A DNA stretch of 64,000 bases, taken from positions 62,001 to 126,000 of the forward strand of contig JAAZYR010000009.1 of NCBI GenBank assembly GCA_014239555.1, written 5' to 3'. Positions 42,492 to 62,365 of this stretch are shown piece by piece (the first letter of the stretch is position 1; each line of letters opens with the position of its first letter). The notes below the pieces were generated by a model that was given only the letters and a program-made list of their open reading frames with translations, was not told the origin of the DNA and ran no database searches. A program made the position numbers and the translations under genes. The DNA is from Acidimicrobiales bacterium. GTDB lineage: Bacteria > Actinomycetota > Acidimicrobiia > Acidimicrobiales > Poriferisodalaceae.

Positions 42492-42887
42492 ATGACTACC
42501 CAGGCGCGACATCCCCATTTATTGAAGCTGACCGATCCTCCGATCATGTTGGGGCACCGGTGCACCCAATGTCGTCGTGTGGCGTTCCCACCGGATCCAT
42601 ATGGGTGCGAAAAGTGTGGTGCCCCACACACCGACCTTGAGGAGTTCGTTCTTGAGGCGAAGGGAACGGTGCGAGCAGTCGCGACTGTGCATCGGCACCA
42701 TCATGCGTCCCCGCCTACTCCATTCACCGTCGCTGTCATTGATCTCGTTGGGGGGCCTGTCATTAAGGCGATTGTGGCTGGCGGTGAGGTTCGCGTTGGA
42801 GTTGTAGTCGAAGGAGTCTTAGTTGAAGACGTCGAAGACCCTGAGGGCACCGTAATGGTCGACTTACAGTTTCGAGTAGTCACGTGA
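42492..42887 (+). CDS. DUF35 OB-fold/zinc-ribbon acyl-CoA-binding protein
   Basis: A 131-residue partner protein of thiolase-like enzymes. The N-terminal rubredoxin-like zinc ribbon has CTQC and CEKC. The C-terminal OB-fold begins about residue 55 (GTVRAVATVHRHHH) and ends with a VMVDLQFRVV strand. DUF35 proteins dock on thiolase-fold proteins and help bind the acyl-CoA. ATG 42492 has GAAGG 4 nt upstream. The stop overlaps the next start (GTGA, 42884-42887), so the two subunits are made together. Confidence 0.9.
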   Translation: MTTQARHPHLLKLTDPPIMLGHRCTQCRRVAFPPDPYGCEKCGAPHTDLEEFVLEAKGTVRAVATVHRHHHASPPTPFTVAVIDLVGGPVIKAIVAGGEVRVGVVVEGVLVEDVEDPEGTVMVDLQFRVVT

Positions 42888-44035
42888 CCGGCGGCAATGT
42901 CCTCGCCGATAGGCCCGTGTACGTGGTTGGGATCGGGCTGCATCCCTATCAACGGCGCAGTGACACTACCTATGTGGCGCTGGGTGTGACAGCGGCGCGG
43001 TCGGCTTTACGCGACGCGGATATTGCTTGGACCGATGTGGAAGCGGCCTATACCGGCACCGCTCTGCTTGGTATGGGGTCAAGCAGAGTGATGCTCAGTC
43101 GCCTAGGGGCGACTGGGATTCCTATGACACAAGTGGAGAACGCTTCGGCTTCGGGATCTTCGGCAGTTGCCCAGGCGTGCCTGGAGGTCGCGGCAGGTCG
43201 TTCCGACGTGGTGCTTGCCTTGGGGGTCGATAAACCTCGCGGGGGTTTAGGCGCTGCTCCTGGCCAGGCGGGAATCGACAATCTTGAGGGTGGGGCCGTT
43301 GTGCCGTTTACCCATTTCGCGTTGCTTGCTTCGGAGTACATGCATTTACACGGGGTGACTGCGGAACAAGTTGCGAGGGTAGCTCTGAAGAACCATCGGA
43401 ATGGGGCGAGTAACCAGTATGCGCAACGACAAAAAGTTCGGACATTGGAAGAGATTCTCACCGAACCAATATCGGGGGCGATGACACGTTTGCAGTGCTG
43501 CCCAGTCGGGGAGGGCGCTGCGGCAGTGGTGATCGCTTCAGAAGAGGGTATTCGGCGCCACAATTTGGATCACTCTCGAGCAATTCGAGTTGTCGCCTCC
43601 GTCACGAGAACCGAAGGGTTGTATGACGAGGGGGTGGGTATTGACGCTGCGCTCACTGCCCAAACCGGTGCAGCGGCTTTTAACGAAGCTGGCATCGAAC
43701 CGTCTGACATCGATGTGCTCGAAGTTCACGACGCGTTTGCTATCGAGGAGTTGTTGTATGCCGAGGCGTTGGGTCTGTGCGCGCCTGGCGAAGCCGCTGC
43801 TTTGGTCGAGTCGGGTGAATTCGATATAGGTGGGCGTTGCGCATTGAGTCCATCAGGAGGCCTCCTTGCGATGGGTCATCCGATTGGTCCCACAGGCACG
43901 GGGCAGATCGCTGAAGTGGTGCGCCAGTTACGCGACGAAGCGGGCTCTCGCCAACAACCCAACGCCCGTACCGGGCTGGCTCATATGGTCGGTATTGGAG
44001 CAGTTTGCGTCGTTCATGTATTACGCAAGGACTAG
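42884..44035 (+). CDS. Thiolase-like protein lacking the nucleophilic Cys (SCP-x/Ltp2 type)
   Basis: A 383-residue thiolase-superfamily protein coupled to DUF35. At the nucleophile position it has S88 (NASASG) instead of Cys, three residues before G91. The GHPIGPTGTG histidine motif and EVHDAFAIEE remain. Loss of the Cys is known in thiolase-fold retro-aldolases such as Ltp2, which with a DUF35 partner cleaves the steroid side chain after hydration. A retro-aldolase or a non-catalytic subunit is therefore more likely than a true thiolase. GTG 42884 is the start. Nearby acyl-CoA genes support a role in degrading a branched or cyclic acid. Confidence 0.85.
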   Translation: MTGGNVLADRPVYVVGIGLHPYQRRSDTTYVALGVTAARSALRDADIAWTDVEAAYTGTALLGMGSSRVMLSRLGATGIPMTQVENASASGSSAVAQACLEVAAGRSDVVLALGVDKPRGGLGAAPGQAGIDNLEGGAVVPFTHFALLASEYMHLHGVTAEQVARVALKNHRNGASNQYAQRQKVRTLEEILTEPISGAMTRLQCCPVGEGAAAVVIASEEGIRRHNLDHSRAIRVVASVTRTEGLYDEGVGIDAALTAQTGAAAFNEAGIEPSDIDVLEVHDAFAIEELLYAEALGLCAPGEAAALVESGEFDIGGRCALSPSGGLLAMGHPIGPTGTGQIAEVVRQLRDEAGSRQQPNARTGLAHMVGIGAVCVVHVLRKD

Positions 44036-44088: not shown

Positions 44089-45576
44089 TCAGTTATTGCG
44101 GGGGAACCCTAAATCAATCTGGCTAGATGATGGATCAGGCCAGCGTGCAGTTACCGCTTTAGCACGGGTATAGAAACGCACGCCTTCTGGGCCATACATG
44201 TGGGTGTCACCAAAAAGAGATGACTTCCACCCTCCAAAGGAGTGATATGCCACGGGAACGGGGATGGGGACATTAATGCCGACCATCCCTACTTGAACCT
44301 CGTGTTGGAACTGGCGTGCTGCTCCCCCGTCGCGGGTGAAGATTGCTGTGCCATTTCCAAACGGATTCGAGTTAATGAGATCGATCGCTTCCCTGAAGGT
44401 TTCTACTCGGACAACAACCAGCACTGGGCCAAAGATTTCGTCGCTGTAGCACTCCATTTCAGGGGTCACCCGATCTAAAAGGGTAGGGCCATAGAAGAAC
44501 CCGCTCTTTGGAACGTCGGCTTGGCTGCCGTCGACTACGGCAACTGCTCCGGCTTCTTGCGCACGTTCTACGTACCCGGCTACTCGCGCGCAATGTTCGC
44601 CAGTGATCAGTGGGCCCATTTCGGCGTCGGGTTCGTCGCCTGCACCCACTTTGATGTCGGGGATTCGCGTTGAGATTGCTTCGACAAGTTCATCAGCAAC
44701 GGATCCAACTGCTATCAGGGCGCTGATCGCCATGCACCGCTCACCAGCTGAACCGTAGGCAGCGCTCACTGCAGCGTCCGCTGCCATGTCGATGTCGGCG
44801 TCAGGCAATACCAGCATGTGGTTTTTCGCGCCCCCCAGAGCTTGCACCCTCTTACCCATTGCGGTGCCCCGGTTATAGACATAGCTGGCTATAGGTGTTG
44901 AACCCACGAAGCTGATCGCCGCGACATCTTCGTGGTCGATGAGCGCGTCAACGGCGACTTTGTCACCGTTGACTACCGAAAACACACCCGGTGGTAGGCC
45001 AGCTTCGATGAACCATTCGGCGATCAGCATTGATGCTGACGGATCTCGTTCAGACGGCTTGCAGATAAACGTGTTTCCGCACGCAATTGCCGTTGCGAAC
45101 ATCCAGGAGGGAACCATGGCGGGGAAATTGAATGGGGTGATGCCCGCTACTACTCCCAGGGGTTGACGCAAGCTATAAACCTCTATCCCTGCCGATACTT
45201 GTTCGTTGATCTCACCCTTGAGGTGATGAGCGATGCCGCAAGCAAATTCAACGTTTTCGAGTCCGCGTGCCACTTCGCCGGCGGCATCTGAGATCACTTT
45301 GCCGTGTTCGCTGCTGATGATTCGAGCGAGTTCGTCAACGCGACCAGCGAGCAGTTCACGAAACCGGAACATGATCTGGGTGCGTTGCGTCAGAGAACTC
45401 TCAGACCATTCGACTGCGGCTGCGGACGCTGAAATGACAGCTTGATCAACCTCAGCTACAGAAGCCAAATCAACTTGAGCTTGCACCTCGCCAGTTGCGG
45501 GGTTGTACACGTCGCTTGAGCGTCCGCTAGTTCCCGCTCGCAATTCGCCATCAATGAAATGTTGGATACGTCGCAC
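44089..45576 (-). CDS. mmsA: Methylmalonate-semialdehyde dehydrogenase (CoA-acylating)
   Basis: Oxidises (methyl)malonate semialdehyde to propionyl- or acetyl-CoA with release of CO2, using NAD and CoA. The 495-residue ALDH-fold protein has the MmsA-specific GVVAGITPFNFPAMVPSWM, FICKPSERDP and catalytic Cys in GSAGERCMA. It acts in valine, thymine and inositol breakdown. Leaderless promoter TAGAGT lies 6 nt before GTG 45576. Convergent with the thiolase-like gene; the 53-nt gap has no clear terminator. Confidence 0.94.
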   Translation of the reverse strand: MRRIQHFIDGELRAGTSGRSSDVYNPATGEVQAQVDLASVAEVDQAVISASAAAVEWSESSLTQRTQIMFRFRELLAGRVDELARIISSEHGKVISDAAGEVARGLENVEFACGIAHHLKGEINEQVSAGIEVYSLRQPLGVVAGITPFNFPAMVPSWMFATAIACGNTFICKPSERDPSASMLIAEWFIEAGLPPGVFSVVNGDKVAVDALIDHEDVAAISFVGSTPIASYVYNRGTAMGKRVQALGGAKNHMLVLPDADIDMAADAAVSAAYGSAGERCMAISALIAVGSVADELVEAISTRIPDIKVGAGDEPDAEMGPLITGEHCARVAGYVERAQEAGAVAVVDGSQADVPKSGFFYGPTLLDRVTPEMECYSDEIFGPVLVVVRVETFREAIDLINSNPFGNGTAIFTRDGGAARQFQHEVQVGMVGINVPIPVPVAYHSFGGWKSSLFGDTHMYGPEGVRFYTRAKAVTARWPDPSSSQIDLGFPRNN

Positions 45577-45626: not shown

Positions 45627-46802
45627 TTAGTTTTCGTCGTACAGACCGTACTTACCGAGTCGGTCGAGACTGACTTCAACGCTCCAAGGCAACATGGTCG
45701 CCCCGCAACGAGCGTCGCGGTAGTGCTGTTCGAGTTTGTTAGGTCGAAGCATTGATCTGCCCCCACAAACACGAATCGCTAGCGAAGCCATTTCCGGGGC
45801 GCCTTCCATGACAGCCACCGTGGCTGTCCAAGCGCGCCGCAAAGCAATGGGCGTTGGATCAACTGATGCTTCACCCAGCACTCGGTAGATCAGTGATTGG
45901 GCCTTGTCGTAGATCATTTGCATTTCAGCCCATCCTGACTGTTTTACGTGATTGTCACGGCGAGATTCGACACCGAGTTCACCTCGCAGATATTGACGGG
46001 TCAGGTCCAATATCGCTCGCATTAACCCCAGGTAACTGAAGCTCAACGTCATGTAGAAGTACGGGAACCGCTGGGCCATGGCGTCGAACACCCCAGGGGG
46101 AAGCACTTCGTTGTCTTCGGGGACGAATGCTTTGGTAAGTAAGAGGTCGCGGGAGTCGGTGCCCCGCATACCGAGGGGATCCCAATCACCGACAATTTCT
46201 ACGCCTTCACTGTTCGCGGGCACTCCCAGAAGTCGGGTCCGGTGGTCACCTTCAACCAGCGCGACCACGTTATGGATGTCAGCGATGCCGCTAAGCGAGG
46301 CAAAGATCTTTTTTCCGGTTACCTCATAACCCCCGTCTACAACAGCGGCAGAGGTGCCAATTGGGCCACCACTGCCAGGGGTTCGACCTTCGGAAAACGG
46401 TTGGCTATGGATGACATGGTCGCGACACATTCCGGTCCACAATTGGGGCCGTGTCCGGTCAAGGTGAGCTTGTTGTTCATCATTGACACCCAGTTCGTCG
46501 GCTATCCATCCAGCGAGAAGGGCCGTGGCGGTGTGCATGTTGAAGGTAAGGGCGGTCGTCGCACAATGACGTCCTAATTCTTCACTTACGAGGGCGTACG
46601 TCACGAAGTCGCCACCCAAACCACCAAATTCGAGGGGAGCGCAAAGTCCAAGGAAGCCTTCGTTTGCGAGGTCGTGCCAGTTGTCGGTTGGGAAGGATGC
46701 TTCCCGATCGTGGGTCGCCGCTCGTTCGCTGAATTGGGGTCCGACCGCGGCGATCCGCTCAACCAACTCCATGCGTTCCGGTGTTTGGATTGGGTCAACC
46801 AC
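45627..46802 (-). CDS. Acyl-CoA dehydrogenase
   Basis: FAD enzyme introducing a 2,3-double bond in an acyl-CoA. The 391-residue protein has the family layout: N-terminal helices with FLGLCAPLEFGGLGGDFVTY, a central beta domain (GKKIFASLSGIADIHNVVAL), and a helical C-terminal domain ending RCGGRSML...RDARCG. The last block varies from typical ACADs, so a hydroxylase-type (HpaB/DszC-like) member is possible. GTG 46802 has GAGGA 6 nt upstream. Runs in the same direction as the PhyH gene (9-nt gap) and mmsA. Confidence 0.87.
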   Translation of the reverse strand: MVDPIQTPERMELVERIAAVGPQFSERAATHDREASFPTDNWHDLANEGFLGLCAPLEFGGLGGDFVTYALVSEELGRHCATTALTFNMHTATALLAGWIADELGVNDEQQAHLDRTRPQLWTGMCRDHVIHSQPFSEGRTPGSGGPIGTSAAVVDGGYEVTGKKIFASLSGIADIHNVVALVEGDHRTRLLGVPANSEGVEIVGDWDPLGMRGTDSRDLLLTKAFVPEDNEVLPPGVFDAMAQRFPYFYMTLSFSYLGLMRAILDLTRQYLRGELGVESRRDNHVKQSGWAEMQMIYDKAQSLIYRVLGEASVDPTPIALRRAWTATVAVMEGAPEMASLAIRVCGGRSMLRPNKLEQHYRDARCGATMLPWSVEVSLDRLGKYGLYDEN

Positions 46803-46811
46803 GTCGATTCC

Positions 46812-47702
46812 TCAATCGTTGGAAGGCGGCCAGAGTAGGGGGAACCAGTCGTGGCGCATAACTTCGCCCGATTGGAGCCCCAAACCATCCAGGGGTGGTG
46901 AGGTCTCACCTTGGCGTTCAAGGTAGCGGACATCGTCACCTAACCAGCGCGTCGAGAATGCTCGTCGACGGTTGGCTATTGGTTCGGCGGTGGTGCCGTG
47001 GAGGGTTCGGAAATCAAAACAAACAGCATCACCGGGCTCCAAGGCTTCAACGAAGATATCGGCGCCATGAGGGTCGATTTCGGGAATCGGAAGAAGCGTC
47101 GGATCGTCTTGGGTGTACTCATCGCCAGAGCCGAAGTTGCGGGGTCGATAAGTTTTGCCGTTTTGGTGGGATCCCTTCACGAACCTGACGCCTGTTTGGG
47201 TCGGAGTTTTATCAAGGGCAACATACATCGACACAGTTTGAGTCCCGTCTAGGCAGTAATAGGGAAGGTCGTGATGCCATGGAGTTGCTTTCTCTGTGCC
47301 TTGTTCTTTTGAGAAGGCGTGGTCATGAAAAAACTGGGCTGTGTCGCTTGCCATTAACTGCGCTGCCATTGACGCCGCGTCAGATGTGAGAACAAACAGC
47401 AGATATTCGGGAATCAATTGCCAGTTGCAGTAACTGTCGAAGAACCGTCCCGATTCGGTACCTCGGATGCTTTCGCACGGGAACGCGTACTTATCAGGGT
47501 GGTTCAGATTGCGTTCGAGGCCGGTTCGTAAAGCTTCAACCCACGATGGGAACGCTTGGCGCACCACAACTACGCCATCTCGTTGGAATGCTTCGATGGT
47601 GGCTGCAGTTAATTCAGCAAATGGGCGGCGTGTTGAAGCGGCAAGAATCCGAACGTCATCTATCACTCGCCACTGCGCTGCAGATTCGTTGCCTACTGTC
47701 AT
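46812..47702 (-). CDS. Phytanoyl-CoA dioxygenase (PhyH)-family oxygenase
   Basis: Fe(II)/2-oxoglutarate-dependent hydroxylase of 296 residues. The double-stranded beta-helix core has TPWHHDLPYY (His and Asp of the facial triad), VRFVKGSHQNG, and the distal LHGTTAEP with the third His, followed by an Arg-rich strand for 2-oxoglutarate (RRRAFSTRW). Family members hydroxylate phytanoyl-CoA, ectoine and other small molecules. ATG 47702 is preferred; TTG/GTG codons upstream (47732, 47729) are in frame. Forms an operon with the acyl-CoA dehydrogenase, suggesting alpha-hydroxylation of branched substrates. Confidence 0.88.
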   Translation of the reverse strand: MTVGNESAAQWRVIDDVRILAASTRRPFAELTAATIEAFQRDGVVVVRQAFPSWVEALRTGLERNLNHPDKYAFPCESIRGTESGRFFDSYCNWQLIPEYLLFVLTSDAASMAAQLMASDTAQFFHDHAFSKEQGTEKATPWHHDLPYYCLDGTQTVSMYVALDKTPTQTGVRFVKGSHQNGKTYRPRNFGSGDEYTQDDPTLLPIPEIDPHGADIFVEALEPGDAVCFDFRTLHGTTAEPIANRRRAFSTRWLGDDVRYLERQGETSPPLDGLGLQSGEVMRHDWFPLLWPPSND

Positions 47703-47750
47703 CTTCACATTCTCGTCGGTTTGAACCACCAATCATGGCAGTCTCTAATC

Positions 47751-48697: not shown

Positions 48698-51600
48698 TCA
48701 GTCTGGGAGACCGAATCCTCCCCCACCGGGGGTTTCGATTTCGAAACAGTCGTCAATGCCGACGTCGACTCGAGTGCTGCCGGGCAACTTCACATTGGTT
48801 CCGTCTGCCCGGAAAAGCCGGTTAACGCCCACAAGGCCGTCTTCCCCACCGTTGACTCCAAAGGGAGCGACCTTTCGTCGCGATGACAAAACGTTGACTG
48901 TCATCGGTTCCAGAAATCGGAGCCGTCGAATTACTCCGTCTCCTCCGTTATGGGCGCCTTCGCCACCAGAGTTTGCGCGCACCAGAAAATGTTCAACCCT
49001 CACAGGGTGCCGCCACTCAAGAATTTCAGGGTCAGTTAATCGAGTGTTCGTCATGTGGGTGTGGACTGCACTTGCACCGTCAGCATTTCGGGTTGCTCCC
49101 GCACCACCACAAATAGTTTCGTAGTACTGGTGTTCGTCGTTGCCCCAAATGAAATTGTTCATTGTTCCTTGGGACCCTGCGATCACACCCAAAGCTCCAA
49201 ACAGTGTGTCCACCAGAAGTTGGCTGGTTTCCACGTTGCCGGCGATGACCGCGGCGGGAGGGTGGGGGCTAATCATTGAAGGATCAGGGATTCGTATGTC
49301 CAGGGGAACTAAACATCCAGCGTTAAGAGGAATGGCGTCGTCAACCATGCAACGAAACACGTAGAGCACAGCCGATCGGCACACCGCTTTGGGGGCATTG
49401 AAGTTGCCAGGGTGCTGCCCACTGGTTCCCGCGAAGTCAATAACGGCTGACCGCTCCTCCAGATTGACTCGGATGCTCACCGATATTTGACTCCCGTCGT
49501 CCATCTTTCCAACAAAATCACAATCAGTTAGTGCGGCAATCACTCGCCGTACTGACTCTTCCGCGTTCTGCATTACGTGATTCATGTAGGCGTGAACAAC
49601 ATTGAGTCCGTAATGGTCAATGACTTTGTGGAGTTCAGTAGTTCCTCGTTCACAAGCTGCTACTTGGGCTTTGAGGTCGGCCACATTTTGGGTGGGGTTT
49701 CTTGCCGGCCACGGTCCCGACGTCAACAGGTCTCTCATTTCTTGTTCTAAGAAACGGCCGTTTTTGACAAGTAGCACGTTGTCTAAGACAAGGCCTTCTT
49801 GGTCAATGGTTGTCGAATCGGCGGGGGCCGAACCTGGAACGATTCCACCTATGTCGGAGTGGTGACCGCGGGCAGCCACATAAAAGATTCGGTTGCCTGT
49901 GGTGTCGTCAAAGACAGGTTTCACCACTGTGATGTCGGGTAGATGGGTTCCGCCGTTGTATGGAGCATTGAGGACATATGCGTCCCCGGGTTCCATATCT
50001 GGGTTGTTGGAGATAACTGATTTGATCGCTTCGCTCATCGATCCGAGGTGGATCGGGAGGTGGGGGGCGTTGGCGATGAGTTCTCCCGAAGGGTCGAACA
50101 CTGCGCAACTGAAGTCGAGTCGTTCTTTAATGTTTACCGATACCGCAGTGTTTTCGAGAACAACACCCATTTGTTCAGCGATGTTCATAAAAAGGTTGTT
50201 GAAGATCTCTAATTGGACCGGGTTGACGTCGGTGCCAACTGCCGAACGCAATGTTTGCGCTGCGACGCGTTCGATTACCAGGTTCCCGTTGTCGACAATT
50301 CGGCCTTGCCAATCTGGTTCGATGACCGTGGTTGCGTTTGGTTCGACCAGAACTGCGGGACCATTGATGGGTGTGCCCGGGGTGAGATGCTTTCTTTCCA
50401 GGAACGGAGTGTCAGCTTGAACTCCGGCCATGGTCGTCGGAAAGACCCCTAAGAGAGGGTCGCGAACATCTGACATCGGTTCGGCAACTGAAACTTGATC
50501 GGCAAGTCCAACAGATTCAAGTTGCATTGATTCGATGATGACCGGGGTGTCAGGGGAGACAAACCCGAAACGTGTTTGGTGATGTGTTTCGAAAGCTGCC
50601 GCTACTTCGTTAAAAGTTCCCGCTGGCACGAGTAGCGCCGTATCGGACCCTTGGTAGCGAAGCGATAAACGGCGAATGAGTTGTTGAGCGTCAGAGTTAA
50701 CGCCTTCAGCGACGAGGTGGTCGCCGCCCGCGCGTTCCAGTTCTTTCCAACGACCGTCGAGGCGTTGAAGTGTTTGGCTGTTGAGCGGTTCTTCGACAGC
50801 TTCATCTCGTAAGTGACGGATGTCGGCGAGACCAATACCCAATGCTGAGAGAACACCAGCTTGTGGGTGGACGAATATGTTTTTGATATTTAAGCGGTCG
50901 GCCACCATGCAGGCATGTTGTCCTCCTGCACCGCCGAAACACACCAGGGTGTAGTCGCTTACATCGTGGCCGCGTTCGATACTGATCTTTTTGATGGCGT
51001 TTGCCATATTGTCCGCGGCGATGTCGAGAAAGCCTTGCGCGACAGTTGTTTCGGTTTGATGAGTTGCCGTTGCATCAGCGATTTCGCGTGCCAGCGATGT
51101 GAACGCTGCGAGCGTGGTTCGCTCATCGAGGGACTCAGTGCCTTCCGATCCGAACACCGCAGGAAAGAACTCTGGTCGCAGTTTGCCAAGGACGACGTTG
51201 CAGTCAGTGATGGCGAGTGGGCCACCGTTGCCGTAACAGGTGGGTCCGGGATCAGCACCAGCGGAGTCGGGGCCTACGCGCAAGCGACTGCCGTCGAAGT
51301 GGAGAACTGATCCTCCTCCGGCCGCCACGGTGTGGATGTCCATCATCGGTGATCTGACACGCACCCCCGCCACCTCAGTTTCGTAGGCGCGTTCGAATTC
51401 TCCGGCGTAGTGGCTGACATCGGTGGAGGTGCCTCCCATGTCGAATCCGATGAGTTTGTCGAAGCCAGCGTTTTGAGCGGTACGCACCATTCCCACGACA
51501 CCTCCGGCGGGGCCTGACAAGAGGGCGTCCTTGCCATGAAAGGTGTAGGCGTCAGTAAGTCCACCGTTTGATTGCATGAACATCAGACGTGGACTTAAGT

Positions 51601-52300
51601 CATCTTCGCGGAGGTGTTGATCTACTTGAGCAACGTAACGTCTCAAGATGGGTGATAGGTAAGCGTCAACGACTGTGGTGTCGCCTCGGGGGACAATTTT
51701 CATCAACGCGCTGACTTCGTGGCTGACTGAAACCTGATCGAATCCCAACTCGCGGGCAATGGCCGCGACGCGGGCCTCGTGAGCTGTGTGACGGTACCCA
51801 TGGAGAAGAACGACGGCTACTGAGTTAATCCCCCGCTCTTGGGCTCGTAGAAGACCGGCACGAGTTGTTTTTTCATCCAATGGGACGAGGATGTCACCGT
51901 CCGCGCTTACCCGTTCGTTGATTTCTAGGACATCGGCATAGAGCATTTCTGGGGCGACGATGTCGAGCGCGAAAAGATCGGGTCGGGTCTGATATCCGAT
52001 TCGCAGCACGTCACCGAATCCTTCGGTGGCGACGAGGAGGGTCGGTTCGCCTTGCCGTTCAAGAAGGGCGTTGGTGGCGACAGTGGTGCCCATCTTTACT
52101 GACTCGATTTTGTTCAGAGGTAATGGTTCCTGCGAAGAAAGTTCGAGAAGGTCTCGAATACCTTGAACCGCGGCATCTGAGTAACGGCGCGGGTTGTCAG
52201 AGAGAAGTTTGTGGGTGGCTACCGTCCCATCGGGTAACCGGCCGACAATGTCGGTAAAGGTGCCGCCTCTGTCGATCCAAAAGTTCCAGCCGTGGTTCAT
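48698..52300 (-). CDS. Fused 5-oxoprolinase / N-methylhydantoinase (HyuA-HyuB)
   Basis: ATP-dependent hydrolase of five-membered cyclic amides such as 5-oxoproline or hydantoins. The 1200-residue length equals the eukaryotic-type fused oxoprolinase. Residues 1-~690 are HyuA: the ASKHA phosphate loop WIDRGGTFTDIVG (8-20), LLSGPAGGVVGM, and FDMGGTSTDVSHY. The remainder is HyuB, with NPVQLEIFNNLF at its start, the EGAHNGGDGVIRRLRF region, and a Gly-rich end (ETPGGGGFGLPD). In many bacteria the halves are separate genes. It lies divergent from an alpha/beta hydrolase-LLM pair. Confidence 0.94.
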   Translation of the reverse strand: MNHGWNFWIDRGGTFTDIVGRLPDGTVATHKLLSDNPRRYSDAAVQGIRDLLELSSQEPLPLNKIESVKMGTTVATNALLERQGEPTLLVATEGFGDVLRIGYQTRPDLFALDIVAPEMLYADVLEINERVSADGDILVPLDEKTTRAGLLRAQERGINSVAVVLLHGYRHTAHEARVAAIARELGFDQVSVSHEVSALMKIVPRGDTTVVDAYLSPILRRYVAQVDQHLREDDLSPRLMFMQSNGGLTDAYTFHGKDALLSGPAGGVVGMVRTAQNAGFDKLIGFDMGGTSTDVSHYAGEFERAYETEVAGVRVRSPMMDIHTVAAGGGSVLHFDGSRLRVGPDSAGADPGPTCYGNGGPLAITDCNVVLGKLRPEFFPAVFGSEGTESLDERTTLAAFTSLAREIADATATHQTETTVAQGFLDIAADNMANAIKKISIERGHDVSDYTLVCFGGAGGQHACMVADRLNIKNIFVHPQAGVLSALGIGLADIRHLRDEAVEEPLNSQTLQRLDGRWKELERAGGDHLVAEGVNSDAQQLIRRLSLRYQGSDTALLVPAGTFNEVAAAFETHHQTRFGFVSPDTPVIIESMQLESVGLADQVSVAEPMSDVRDPLLGVFPTTMAGVQADTPFLERKHLTPGTPINGPAVLVEPNATTVIEPDWQGRIVDNGNLVIERVAAQTLRSAVGTDVNPVQLEIFNNLFMNIAEQMGVVLENTAVSVNIKERLDFSCAVFDPSGELIANAPHLPIHLGSMSEAIKSVISNNPDMEPGDAYVLNAPYNGGTHLPDITVVKPVFDDTTGNRIFYVAARGHHSDIGGIVPGSAPADSTTIDQEGLVLDNVLLVKNGRFLEQEMRDLLTSGPWPARNPTQNVADLKAQVAACERGTTELHKVIDHYGLNVVHAYMNHVMQNAEESVRRVIAALTDCDFVGKMDDGSQISVSIRVNLEERSAVIDFAGTSGQHPGNFNAPKAVCRSAVLYVFRCMVDDAIPLNAGCLVPLDIRIPDPSMISPHPPAAVIAGNVETSQLLVDTLFGALGVIAGSQGTMNNFIWGNDEHQYYETICGGAGATRNADGASAVHTHMTNTRLTDPEILEWRHPVRVEHFLVRANSGGEGAHNGGDGVIRRLRFLEPMTVNVLSSRRKVAPFGVNGGEDGLVGVNRLFRADGTNVKLPGSTRVDVGIDDCFEIETPGGGGFGLPD

Positions 52301-59932: not shown

Positions 59933-62365
59933 ATGACCATGTTGGGGGACTACCGAGTCATCGAGTTGGCAGACGAACGAGGCCAGCTCGCGGGACACGT
60001 TTTGGCGTCCTTGGGGGCCGAAGTCATCACCATCGAACCTCCAGGCGGTTCCAGTTCCCGCACGATCGGGCCATTCGCCGGCGACGTTGTGTCAGATGAC
60101 ACTTCGTTGTGGCATTGGTCGTACAACCGGGGAAAGCAATCTGTCGTTCTAGATCTGGAAACCGTTGAGGGCCGCGAGGAGCTGCTTCGTCTTACTGATG
60201 GTGCCGACATCGTCATCGAAGCGTTCGGACCAAATGTTCTACACGGGTTAGGGCTCGGTTATGAGGTGATGAATGAGAGAAACCCTGCTCTCATTCATCT
60301 ATCGATATCGGCGTTCGGAGACGACGGACCTAAGGCATTCTGGGAGGCGACGGATCTGACCATCATGGCTTCGGGGGGTCAGATGAGCCTGGCCGGAGAT
60401 TTAGATCGCGCTCCCCTTCGCATTCCGCTCCCCCAGGCGTACCTGCACGTATCTTCAGAAGCAGTGGGCGCTGCCTTGATTGCTCTCTATGAACGTCAGC
60501 ATAATTCGGGGTTAGGTCAGCACATAAATCTCTCCGCTCAGGCATCCACCCTGCAAGCAAGCCAAACCAACATGGTCGCGTCAGCTATTAACGCTCCCCC
60601 AGCAATCCGTTCTGCTGGTGGAGTCACCATTTCCGACATCTACGTTCAGCTGATGTGGCCATGCGCAGATGGACACGTTTCCGTCACTGTTTTGTTCGGT
60701 CCCGCCCTCGGGCCGTTCACGAGAAACCTCATGGAATGGGTGTTCGAGGAAGGCTTCTGCGACGAGGCCACCCGTGACAAGGATTGGCTGAACTATGCGG
60801 AACTCATTTTTTCGGGTCAGGAACCTGTCACAGAATACGACCGAGTAAAAACAGTCATCGGCGAGTTCTGCGCCACCAAAACCAAAGCAGAACTCTTCGA
60901 AGAGGCGTTCGTTCGCCGGCTACTTATCGCACCCGTAACAACCACTGAAGATGTCCTAAACAACCCCCACCTGACCGAGCGAGACATATGGGAAGACATC
61001 CAAATTGGTGATCAGGTCGTGCGTTTTCCTGGGCGGATGGCGATCTTTTCTGAAACTCCCCAAGTTCCCCTCCCCCAACCACCAACCATCGGGGAACACA
61101 CCACCCAAGTGTTGGCTCAACCACACAGAAAACCCAACGTGGCAATCGCCCCCATACCTAACCGGCAAGGTAAAGCCCTTGAAGGACTCAAGATCTTGGA
61201 TTTCATGTGGGTGATGGCGGGACCCGCAGGGAGTCGAGTCCTCGCCGACTACGGAGCAAACATCGTCCGTATCGATTCCGAAGCACGAATGGACACAGCC
61301 CGAACGTTGCAGCCTTTCCGAAACGACGAGGGTCTACCGGACAACTCGGCCCTGTACAGCAACATGAATGCAGGTAAGCGAGGATTGTCGCTCGACCTCA
61401 CTAAACCTGAAGCCATCGAGGTAGTGCACGATCTCGTTCGATGGGCCGATGTGGTGTTGGAATCATTCTCACCCAAAGGCATGGCAGGTTTTGGACTGGA
61501 CTACGAGTCGTTAAGAAAAATCAAACCGGATGTGGTGATGGCATCGAGTTGCATCATGGGCCAAACCGGTCCGTACACCCAATTAGCGGGTTACGGAACA
61601 ATGGCCTCCGCGATTTCGGGGTTCTTTGAGCCGACCGGATGGCCTGATCGTTCACCGAGTGGCCCATTTGGCGCCTACACCGACTACATTTCCCCGCGCT
61701 TTCTTGTGAGTTGTGTGATGGCTGCCGTCGAACATCATCGGAGCACAGGTCAGGGGCAATACATCGACTTCAGTCAAGGTGAAGCGTCCATGCAACAGCT
61801 AACCCCGCTTCTATTGGACTGGACTGTGAACCGTCGTTTGTGGGATCGAATGGGCAACCGCGATCATGTGCACGCTCCTCATGCGGTGTTTCGGTCCAAG
61901 GGTGACGATGAGTGGGTGGCGGTCGTGGTGACTAACGATCACCAGTGGCAGGCGTTATGTGAACTCATTGGTGCACCTGAACTCACCGAACTTGACGTTG
62001 ACGCTCGTCGCGCCCGTCAAGATGAACTCGAAGCCAGGATCGAGGTATGGACGGCAGAACGTTCGTGCACCGAGGCAATGACGACATGTCAGAGTGCTGG
62101 CATTCCGGCCCATCGAGTTCAAAACACCGGCCACTGCCTTGATGACCCCCAGTTGGCTCACCGAAACCACTTCATCGAAGTTGGCCACGCAACTCAGGGA
62201 ACAACGACGGTGGAAAACACCCGATTCGGTTTGTCGCGTACCCCAGCAAACGTCGTGTACGGGGGCCCAGTTTGGGGCGAACACAACTGGGAAATATTGA
62301 CTGAAGAACTTGGCTATGACCCCGAGCGGATCGCTGAGCTGGCGATTGCTGAGGTGCTGGGTTAG
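59933..62365 (+). CDS. Double-domain CaiB/BaiF (class III) CoA-transferase
   Basis: An 810-residue fusion of two class III CoA-transferase domains (about 1-390 and 415-810). Each repeats the family blocks: NRGKQSVVLDLETVEG and MNAGKRGLSLDLTKPE, VIEAFGPN and VLESFSPKG. In domain 2, D584 (YTDYI) is at the catalytic Asp position. Ungapped alignment of domain 1 puts L171 there, so domain 1 appears inactive. Single-domain enzymes of ~400 residues work as interlocked dimers; here one chain could mimic the dimer. Its stop overlaps the convergent membrane-protein stop by 4 nt. ATG 59939 is an alternative start. Confidence 0.92.
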   Translation: MTMLGDYRVIELADERGQLAGHVLASLGAEVITIEPPGGSSSRTIGPFAGDVVSDDTSLWHWSYNRGKQSVVLDLETVEGREELLRLTDGADIVIEAFGPNVLHGLGLGYEVMNERNPALIHLSISAFGDDGPKAFWEATDLTIMASGGQMSLAGDLDRAPLRIPLPQAYLHVSSEAVGAALIALYERQHNSGLGQHINLSAQASTLQASQTNMVASAINAPPAIRSAGGVTISDIYVQLMWPCADGHVSVTVLFGPALGPFTRNLMEWVFEEGFCDEATRDKDWLNYAELIFSGQEPVTEYDRVKTVIGEFCATKTKAELFEEAFVRRLLIAPVTTTEDVLNNPHLTERDIWEDIQIGDQVVRFPGRMAIFSETPQVPLPQPPTIGEHTTQVLAQPHRKPNVAIAPIPNRQGKALEGLKILDFMWVMAGPAGSRVLADYGANIVRIDSEARMDTARTLQPFRNDEGLPDNSALYSNMNAGKRGLSLDLTKPEAIEVVHDLVRWADVVLESFSPKGMAGFGLDYESLRKIKPDVVMASSCIMGQTGPYTQLAGYGTMASAISGFFEPTGWPDRSPSGPFGAYTDYISPRFLVSCVMAAVEHHRSTGQGQYIDFSQGEASMQQLTPLLLDWTVNRRLWDRMGNRDHVHAPHAVFRSKGDDEWVAVVVTNDHQWQALCELIGAPELTELDVDARRARQDELEARIEVWTAERSCTEAMTTCQSAGIPAHRVQNTGHCLDDPQLAHRNHFIEVGHATQGTTTVENTRFGLSRTPANVVYGGPVWGEHNWEILTEELGYDPERIAELAIAEVLG

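Follow-up and report, generated by a model that had tools for sequence, protein, structure and literature searches.

The window, a 64,000-nucleotide stretch of an Acidimicrobiales bacterium, comes from a source genome of 2.7 Mb whose nearest named relatives are Acidimicrobiia. It carries at 42492-44035 on the forward strand a DUF35/thiolase-fold gene pair, the ORFs of which overlap by 4 bases. The locus and its surroundings contain the following features.

42492..42887, + strand: DUF35-type partner, 131 aa, with a zinc ribbon (CxxC-x11-CxxC) and an OB fold
42884..44035, + strand: Ser-type thiolase-fold subunit, 383 aa, GTG start, recognized by ORF, Pfam matches and fold model
42884..42887, + strand: overlap of the DUF35 stop with the thiolase start (GTGA), read in the sequence
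43145..43147, + strand: codon of Ser88 (TCG), at the thiolase nucleophile position by alignment
43727..43741, + strand: HDAFA motif, His282 to Ala286, in which Ala284 replaces the second Cys of the SCP2-thiolase HDCF motif
43745..43747, + strand: codon of Glu288, co-conserved with Ser88
43877..43879, + strand: codon of His332 in GHPIGPTG, aligned with Ltp2 Tyr344
43982..43984, + strand: codon of His367 in AHMVG
44089-45576, strand opposite to the pair: MMSDH, by Pfam/NCBIfam matches
45627-46802, strand opposite to the pair: acyl-CoA dehydrogenase, by domain match
46812-47732, strand opposite to the pair: PhyH, by domain match
59933-62365, + strand: CoA-transferase family III protein, 810 aa, ~16 kb from the pair

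An earlier note on this DNA had described a DUF35/thiolase pair with Ser88 in place of the catalytic Cys and with the His and HDAFA motifs retained, and the sequence bears out each of these points. The thiolase-fold protein scored 122.5 bits against Thiolase_C_1 (Pfam cut-off, 28) and 53.9 bits against Thiolase_N, and its AF2 model reached a pLDDT of 88 and a pTM of 0.91, with residues 328-333, His332 among them, at a pLDDT below 50. By fold and Pfam score the protein falls in the thiolase superfamily, and it carries Ser88 where the Cys type has its nucleophilic cysteine. The DUF35 protein was matched by phmmer to 6esq_E (1.3e-7) and ChsH2 (6ok1_B, 5.6e-5); it scored under the Pfam cut-offs of OB_ChsH2_C (24.5 versus 27.1) and zf-ChsH2 (19.4 versus 23.2), and it scored 26.2 bits in a genome-wide search. 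Its zinc site is of the C4 kind, like that of ChsH2, and all four Cys were kept in 79 of 79 aligned DUF35 proteins (78 from related loci and the window's own). A DUF35 ORF was found at 78 of 80 related loci; the exceptions are L048 and L051, whose thiolase matches start at base 168 and base 245 of the contig stretch, so that an upstream gene may be missing through truncation. The 4-base overlap recurred in 22 of the 66 loci measured when the possible thiolase start closest to the end of DUF35 was used. The best explanation of the gene pair is a single enzyme complex, composed of a thiolase-fold catalytic subunit and a DUF35 partner.

In alignments, the position of Ser88 corresponds to that of the catalytic nucleophile, a Cys, in SCP2-thiolase, BbsB and archaeal acetoacetyl-CoA thiolase. 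To examine how far the serine is conserved, relatives were sampled from genome contigs (80 loci out of 171 confirmed, 57-97% identity), and all 80, from six named phyla, had Ser at position 88, as did five plasmid relatives of 48-60% identity. The codon was readable in 84 of these 85 loci, with TCN in 82 and AGC in two. A switch between TCN and AGC needs two changes, so Ser has probably been held by selection and the Cys not simply lost. The serine characterizes the whole family and is neither chance nor a local defect. In a 31-sequence alignment E85, N86, S88, H282, D283, H332 and H367 were invariant, and His367 was kept in 95 of 96 Ser-type sequences of a larger set. Some relatives are annotated as lipid-transfer proteins, and a non-catalytic lipid/CoA carrier or structural subunit was considered, but it is highly improbable given that the residues at the catalytic positions are invariant across wide divergence.

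Two cysteines were considered as nucleophiles. Cys375 (GAVC) was rejected as a hidden catalytic Cys, since it is Gly, Ala or Ser in the plasmid relatives L119, L121, L122 and L123. The invariant Cys205 is an unlikely nucleophile, being Ala or Ser in four sequences of the sister group described below and present in most Cys thiolases. A phage origin was also checked, and the window pair had no match in the phage collection. In open-licence papers we found no prior description of a serine-type DUF35-linked thiolase class, of such an enzyme or of its operon.

We compared position 88 across 156 aligned sequences, a set that excludes L155, L160 and L154 (the same genes as L112, the window gene and L114, respectively), L008 (a partial match), and L005 and L089-L108 (which repeat the window gene or are copies from its lineage, many of them duplicates of contig loci), and found Ser in 96, Cys in 52 and Gly in eight. 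Glu288 was present in all 96 Ser sequences and in none of the 52 Cys or eight Gly sequences; at this position the Cys sequences had Ala (27), Asn (15), Gly (4), Thr (3), Met (2) or Arg (1). All but one of the 96 also had Pro336 and Tyr292, and both residues are missing in L161. This very divergent Ser-type protein (genome G168) kept Ser88, Glu288, His282 and His332. The Gly sequences were Ltp2, Sal, 4u4e and five paralogs from the window's genome, and all eight had Tyr at position 282 (Y[DE]xF).

In the tree, the Ser sequences formed one group (SH-aLRT 94). It comprises the family of the window gene together with its sister group (among them L112, L114, L115 and L133), in which Ser88 and Glu288 are likewise kept; a DUF35-like ORF, read by eye, lies near the sister-group gene in L186 and L188. 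A separate group was made up of the Gly/Y[DE]xF proteins (SH-aLRT 100); the Ser proteins were placed within the Cys-thiolase part. One tree had BbsB as sister to the Ser proteins (84), and the other did not. When the Ser family was forced together with the Gly group, the AU test gave p = 0.121, and with the sister group included p = 0.358; neither arrangement was rejected. Judged from these alignments and trees, the residues separate the Ser from the Gly types clearly, and branching alone does not. The covariation of Ser88 and Glu288 has one origin on the tree and so represents few independent events. The pair is best placed in a putative Ser88/Glu288 class, of single origin, within the DUF35-linked thiolase superfamily.

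The earlier note had likened the protein to Ltp2-type aldolases. Like Ltp2-ChsH2 and Sal-Shy (6ok1, 9myr), in which ChsH2 and Shy are the DUF35 subunits, the window enzyme lacks a nucleophilic Cys and has a DUF35 partner. Known DUF35-dependent aldolases (PMC12329534) carry Gly where thiolases have their nucleophile and use a Tyr of YDHF/YDCY in catalysis; in Sal, Gly replaces the nucleophilic Cys. The catalytic residues of Ltp2 are Tyr294 and Tyr344, and those of Sal are Tyr302 and Cys304. In our alignment, Ltp2 had Gly at position 88, Ltp2 Tyr294 and Tyr344 fell on His282 and His332 of the window protein, and Sal Tyr302 and Cys304 fell on His282 and Ala284. Thus, where the aldolases have Gly88, the catalytic Tyr of YDxF and either Ltp2 Tyr344 or Sal Cys304, the window protein has Ser88, His282 and either His332 or Ala284, and membership in the Ltp2/Sal group was rejected on these residues. 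Profile scores against the window protein were 286 bits for SCP2-thiolase, 274 for BbsB, 238 for archaeal acetoacetyl-CoA thiolase, 106 for Ltp2, 92 for Sal and 84 for TbSLP. Comparison of the structure model, which the earlier note had proposed for Ltp2, gave a Z score of 42.3 for Ltp2 and 41.4 for Sal, under those for SCP2-thiolase (51.9) and BbsB (51.7). The DUF35 partner, taken before as a sign of an aldolase, is not diagnostic, since DUF35 is also found with Cys thiolases: the source genome has seven DUF35 matches for eight Thiolase_C_1 matches, Cys type included, and a DUF35 partner also occurs in benzoylsuccinyl-CoA thiolase, archaeal acetoacetyl-CoA thiolase and PhlACB. The likeness to Ltp2-type aldolases is therefore not sustained.

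The source genome (G000) also encodes five paralogs of the Gly88 type with Y[DE]xF, namely L001, L002, L003, L004 and L007 on contigs C66, C7, C1, C4 and C4, each with DUF35 matches on the same contig; L004 is nearest to Ltp2 (239 bits) and L001 nearest to 4u4e. These five, and not the window gene, are the better aldolase candidates in this genome. PDB entry 4u4e, a Sphaerobacter "putative thiolase", has Gly at the nucleophile position and YDSF and groups with the aldolase-like proteins, and on these features its thiolase label looks doubtful. The mycobacterial thiolase-like protein TLP1, which lacks the Cys, is reported to have Gly and YSCF (PMC3406046), so that by those residues TLP1 is of the Gly kind.

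The nearest solved relatives of the window protein are SCP2-thiolase and benzoylsuccinyl-CoA thiolase. SCP2-thiolase type 1 (6hrv/6hsj), the top fold and profile match, differs in its nucleophilic Cys, the Cys of HDCF and Asn at position 288, and it is not known to have a DUF35 partner. Benzoylsuccinyl-CoA thiolase, BbsAB (7pxp/7pyt), shares the thiolase fold with DUF35, an HDAF motif without the second Cys and the His at the AHMVG position. The bbs genes include a hydratase, an SDR and CoA-transferases, and bbs-like neighbours of these three kinds were found at loci of the family. BbsB differs in keeping the nucleophilic Cys and in having Ala at both 288 and 336; it is 32% identical to the window protein, and scores against the NCBIfam equivalogs lay far under the cut-offs for BbsB (220.6 versus 750) and BbsA (24.1 versus 250).

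The acyltransferase PhlACB (5m3k) also combines thiolase-fold and DUF35 subunits, and its engineered C88S variant (9skm) carries the residue that is natural here, but the natural enzyme uses Cys88 and C88S is inactive. The engineered Cys88-to-Ser change is reported to abolish activity in PhlC of PpATase (PMC6392133) and of CsATase (PMC12955522). Since these mutants are dead, Ser would be a poor stand-in for Cys unless the site is retuned. The priming ketosynthase DpsC, which is not known to have a DUF35, combines a thiolase fold with a natural Ser nucleophile and so resembles the window protein, in which Ser88 is a candidate nucleophile. DpsC is reported to use a Ser118-His297-Asp302 triad and to self-acylate (PMC12664062), and it differs in working on acyl carrier protein in polyketide priming and in its partner residue, Asp302. 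With DpsC as precedent, and with PhlACB showing that thiolase-fold/DUF35 acyltransferases exist, Ser88 could take an acyl group from acyl-CoA for another acceptor, in a DpsC- or PhlC-type acyltransferase or condensing enzyme. We consider this improbable, since the neighbours of the family are degradative (ligase, enoyl-CoA hydratase, SDR, tripartite tricarboxylate transporter binding proteins and TetR/IclR regulators) and no biosynthetic cluster was seen among the annotated loci.

We investigated the genes around the pair. The PhyH, acyl-CoA dehydrogenase, MmsA and CoA-transferase genes, which the earlier note took to suggest side-chain or branched-acid breakdown, are real, but that hint is weakened: the first three lie convergently on the opposite strand, and the CoA-transferase gene is ~16 kb away, encoding a protein with two matched stretches that is probably a fused tandem CaiB-type protein. 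MMSDH, acyl-CoA dehydrogenase and PhyH recurred in 15, 15 and 13 of the 80 loci, respectively, and only within L009-L033, the window's close relatives; being limited to these, they tell little about the function of the pair, and their case as pathway partners is weakened. The - strand at 48698-52300 encodes a 1200-aa protein that unites hydantoinase A and hydantoinase B (oxoprolinase-type) domains in a single chain and distantly matches subunits of caprolactamase and acetophenone carboxylase.

In other lineages the pair lies near genes for an AMP-forming CoA ligase, an enoyl-CoA hydratase, an SDR dehydrogenase, TetR, a nitronate-monooxygenase-like protein and CaiB-type proteins, the TetR and nitronate-monooxygenase names at contig loci being taken from sequence reading and from annotated plasmids. 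Neighbours were counted by tblastn because ORF calling was crude in high-GC loci. At least two of the ligase, hydratase and SDR (at least 45% identity) were present in 20 of the 37 full-length loci outside L009-L033, a count favoured by drawing the queries from one of the 37 (L083) and composed of non-independent loci, several of the 37 being close Bradyrhizobium relatives. The set was found in none of the 20 controls, which were 13-kb loci around thiolase-like genes (eight read as Cys type, the residue of the other 12 unread), and in none of the 18 full-length loci within L009-L033. On a Roseomonas mucosa plasmid the locus comprises transporter binding proteins, an OB-fold protein, thiolase, enoyl-CoA hydratase, SDR, nitronate monooxygenase and an AMP-binding protein. 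A plasmid of Comamonas sp. C11 has IclR, a hypothetical protein, thiolase, enoyl-CoA hydratase, SDR and flavin reductase, with a binding protein and an AMP-binding protein on the other side of the circular record's start. By contrast, TetR, a zinc-ribbon protein and thiolase are all that the locus on the Sulfitobacter pontiacus plasmid (L120) contains. A genome of the window's order, G122, has the full set (L189; SDR 60%, hydratase 52%, ligase 46%). Within the lineage of the window gene the pair has no operon partners next to it, and the operon SDR had no close match in the window's genome, the best of 55 SDR-like matches being 37%. In L063, L066 and L069, genes resembling those for allantoate amidohydrolase and ArgE/DapE are found near the Ser-type pair. 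A possible connection with the catabolism of vanilloyl-acetate (VceA/VceB) found no support.

The acyl-CoA chemistry implied by the earlier note is supported by these results. Its proposed 3-hydroxyacyl-CoA substrate is disfavoured: the beta-oxidation set with an SDR dehydrogenase favours a 3-oxoacyl-CoA, and in other lineages the substrate is probably a bulky or aryl/alicyclic 3-oxoacyl-CoA. Of the candidate retro-aldolase reading, the loss of the nucleophilic Cys, the DUF35 partner and the retained His motifs are supported. As a non-covalent retro-aldolase on 3-hydroxyacyl-CoA, the enzyme would have an Ltp2/Sal-like function with other residues, His282, His332 and Glu288 serving as acid/base and Ser88 as hydrogen bond donor. 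Consistent with this, both catalytic Cys of SCP2-thiolase are replaced (Ser88 and Ala284), an MMSDH-type aldehyde dehydrogenase gene adjoins the window pair and an SSADH-type one occurs in five loci, and the AU tests did not reject a grouping with the aldolase-like proteins. However, Tyr is present at neither aldolase position, Ser88 is not Gly, the sequence and fold scores to Ltp2/Sal are lower, the operons contain the SDR dehydrogenase, and the MMSDH gene is convergent and limited to the window's close relatives. We therefore regard a retro-aldolase as unlikely, though less so than an acyltransferase.

Retro-Claisen cleavage of 3-oxoacyl-CoA using Ser88 is the reading we prefer, and we would call it just short of an even proposition. 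The fold and the His residues fit this reaction, and a new carboxylate (Glu288) goes invariably with Ser88. In the proposed route an acid would pass through the CoA ligase, enoyl-CoA hydratase and SDR dehydrogenase, with the Ser88 enzyme acting as the last step. Ser88, predicted to lie at the N-terminus of the nucleophile helix, would attack the 3-keto carbon with help from His332/His282, and Glu288 may tune a His or replace the lost acid/base Cys. An acyl-CoA enolate would be released, and the O-acyl-serine would then be resolved by CoA or water. Transfer of an acyl group from an oxyester to a CoA thioester is energetically uphill, which weighs against this reading. CoA thiolysis is generally the rule in the thiolase superfamily. 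If water always resolved the acyl-Ser, the enzyme would be a serine-hydrolase-like beta-ketoacyl-CoA hydrolase that carries out the retro-Claisen reaction to yield a free acid and acyl-CoA. Ser with the co-conserved Glu and His residues may recall a hydrolase triad, which would be putative here, but CoA thiolysis retains the thioester energy; we rate such a hydrolase as a little less probable than even the acyltransferase.

Taken more broadly, the retro-Claisen reading would make the pair part of a third catalytic class of the DUF35-linked superfamily beside the Cys thiolases and the Gly/Tyr aldolases. In it Ser88, His282/His332 and Glu288 would cleave acyl-CoA C-C bonds via O-acyl-serine, and the enzymes would serve in catabolic islands of a beta-oxidation-like kind, found in several phyla and on plasmids. 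We advance this tentatively, as somewhat short of an even chance. Textbook thiolase chemistry depends on cysteine, and a natural family this widespread, with Ser fixed and a Glu conserved alongside it, would reveal how the thiolase fold can be retuned; the Ser88/Glu288 class offers a handful of residues for mutation. The labels "thiolase family protein" and "DUF35 partner" hide three active-site types, and in this genome the search for a steroid-type aldolase shifts to five other genes.
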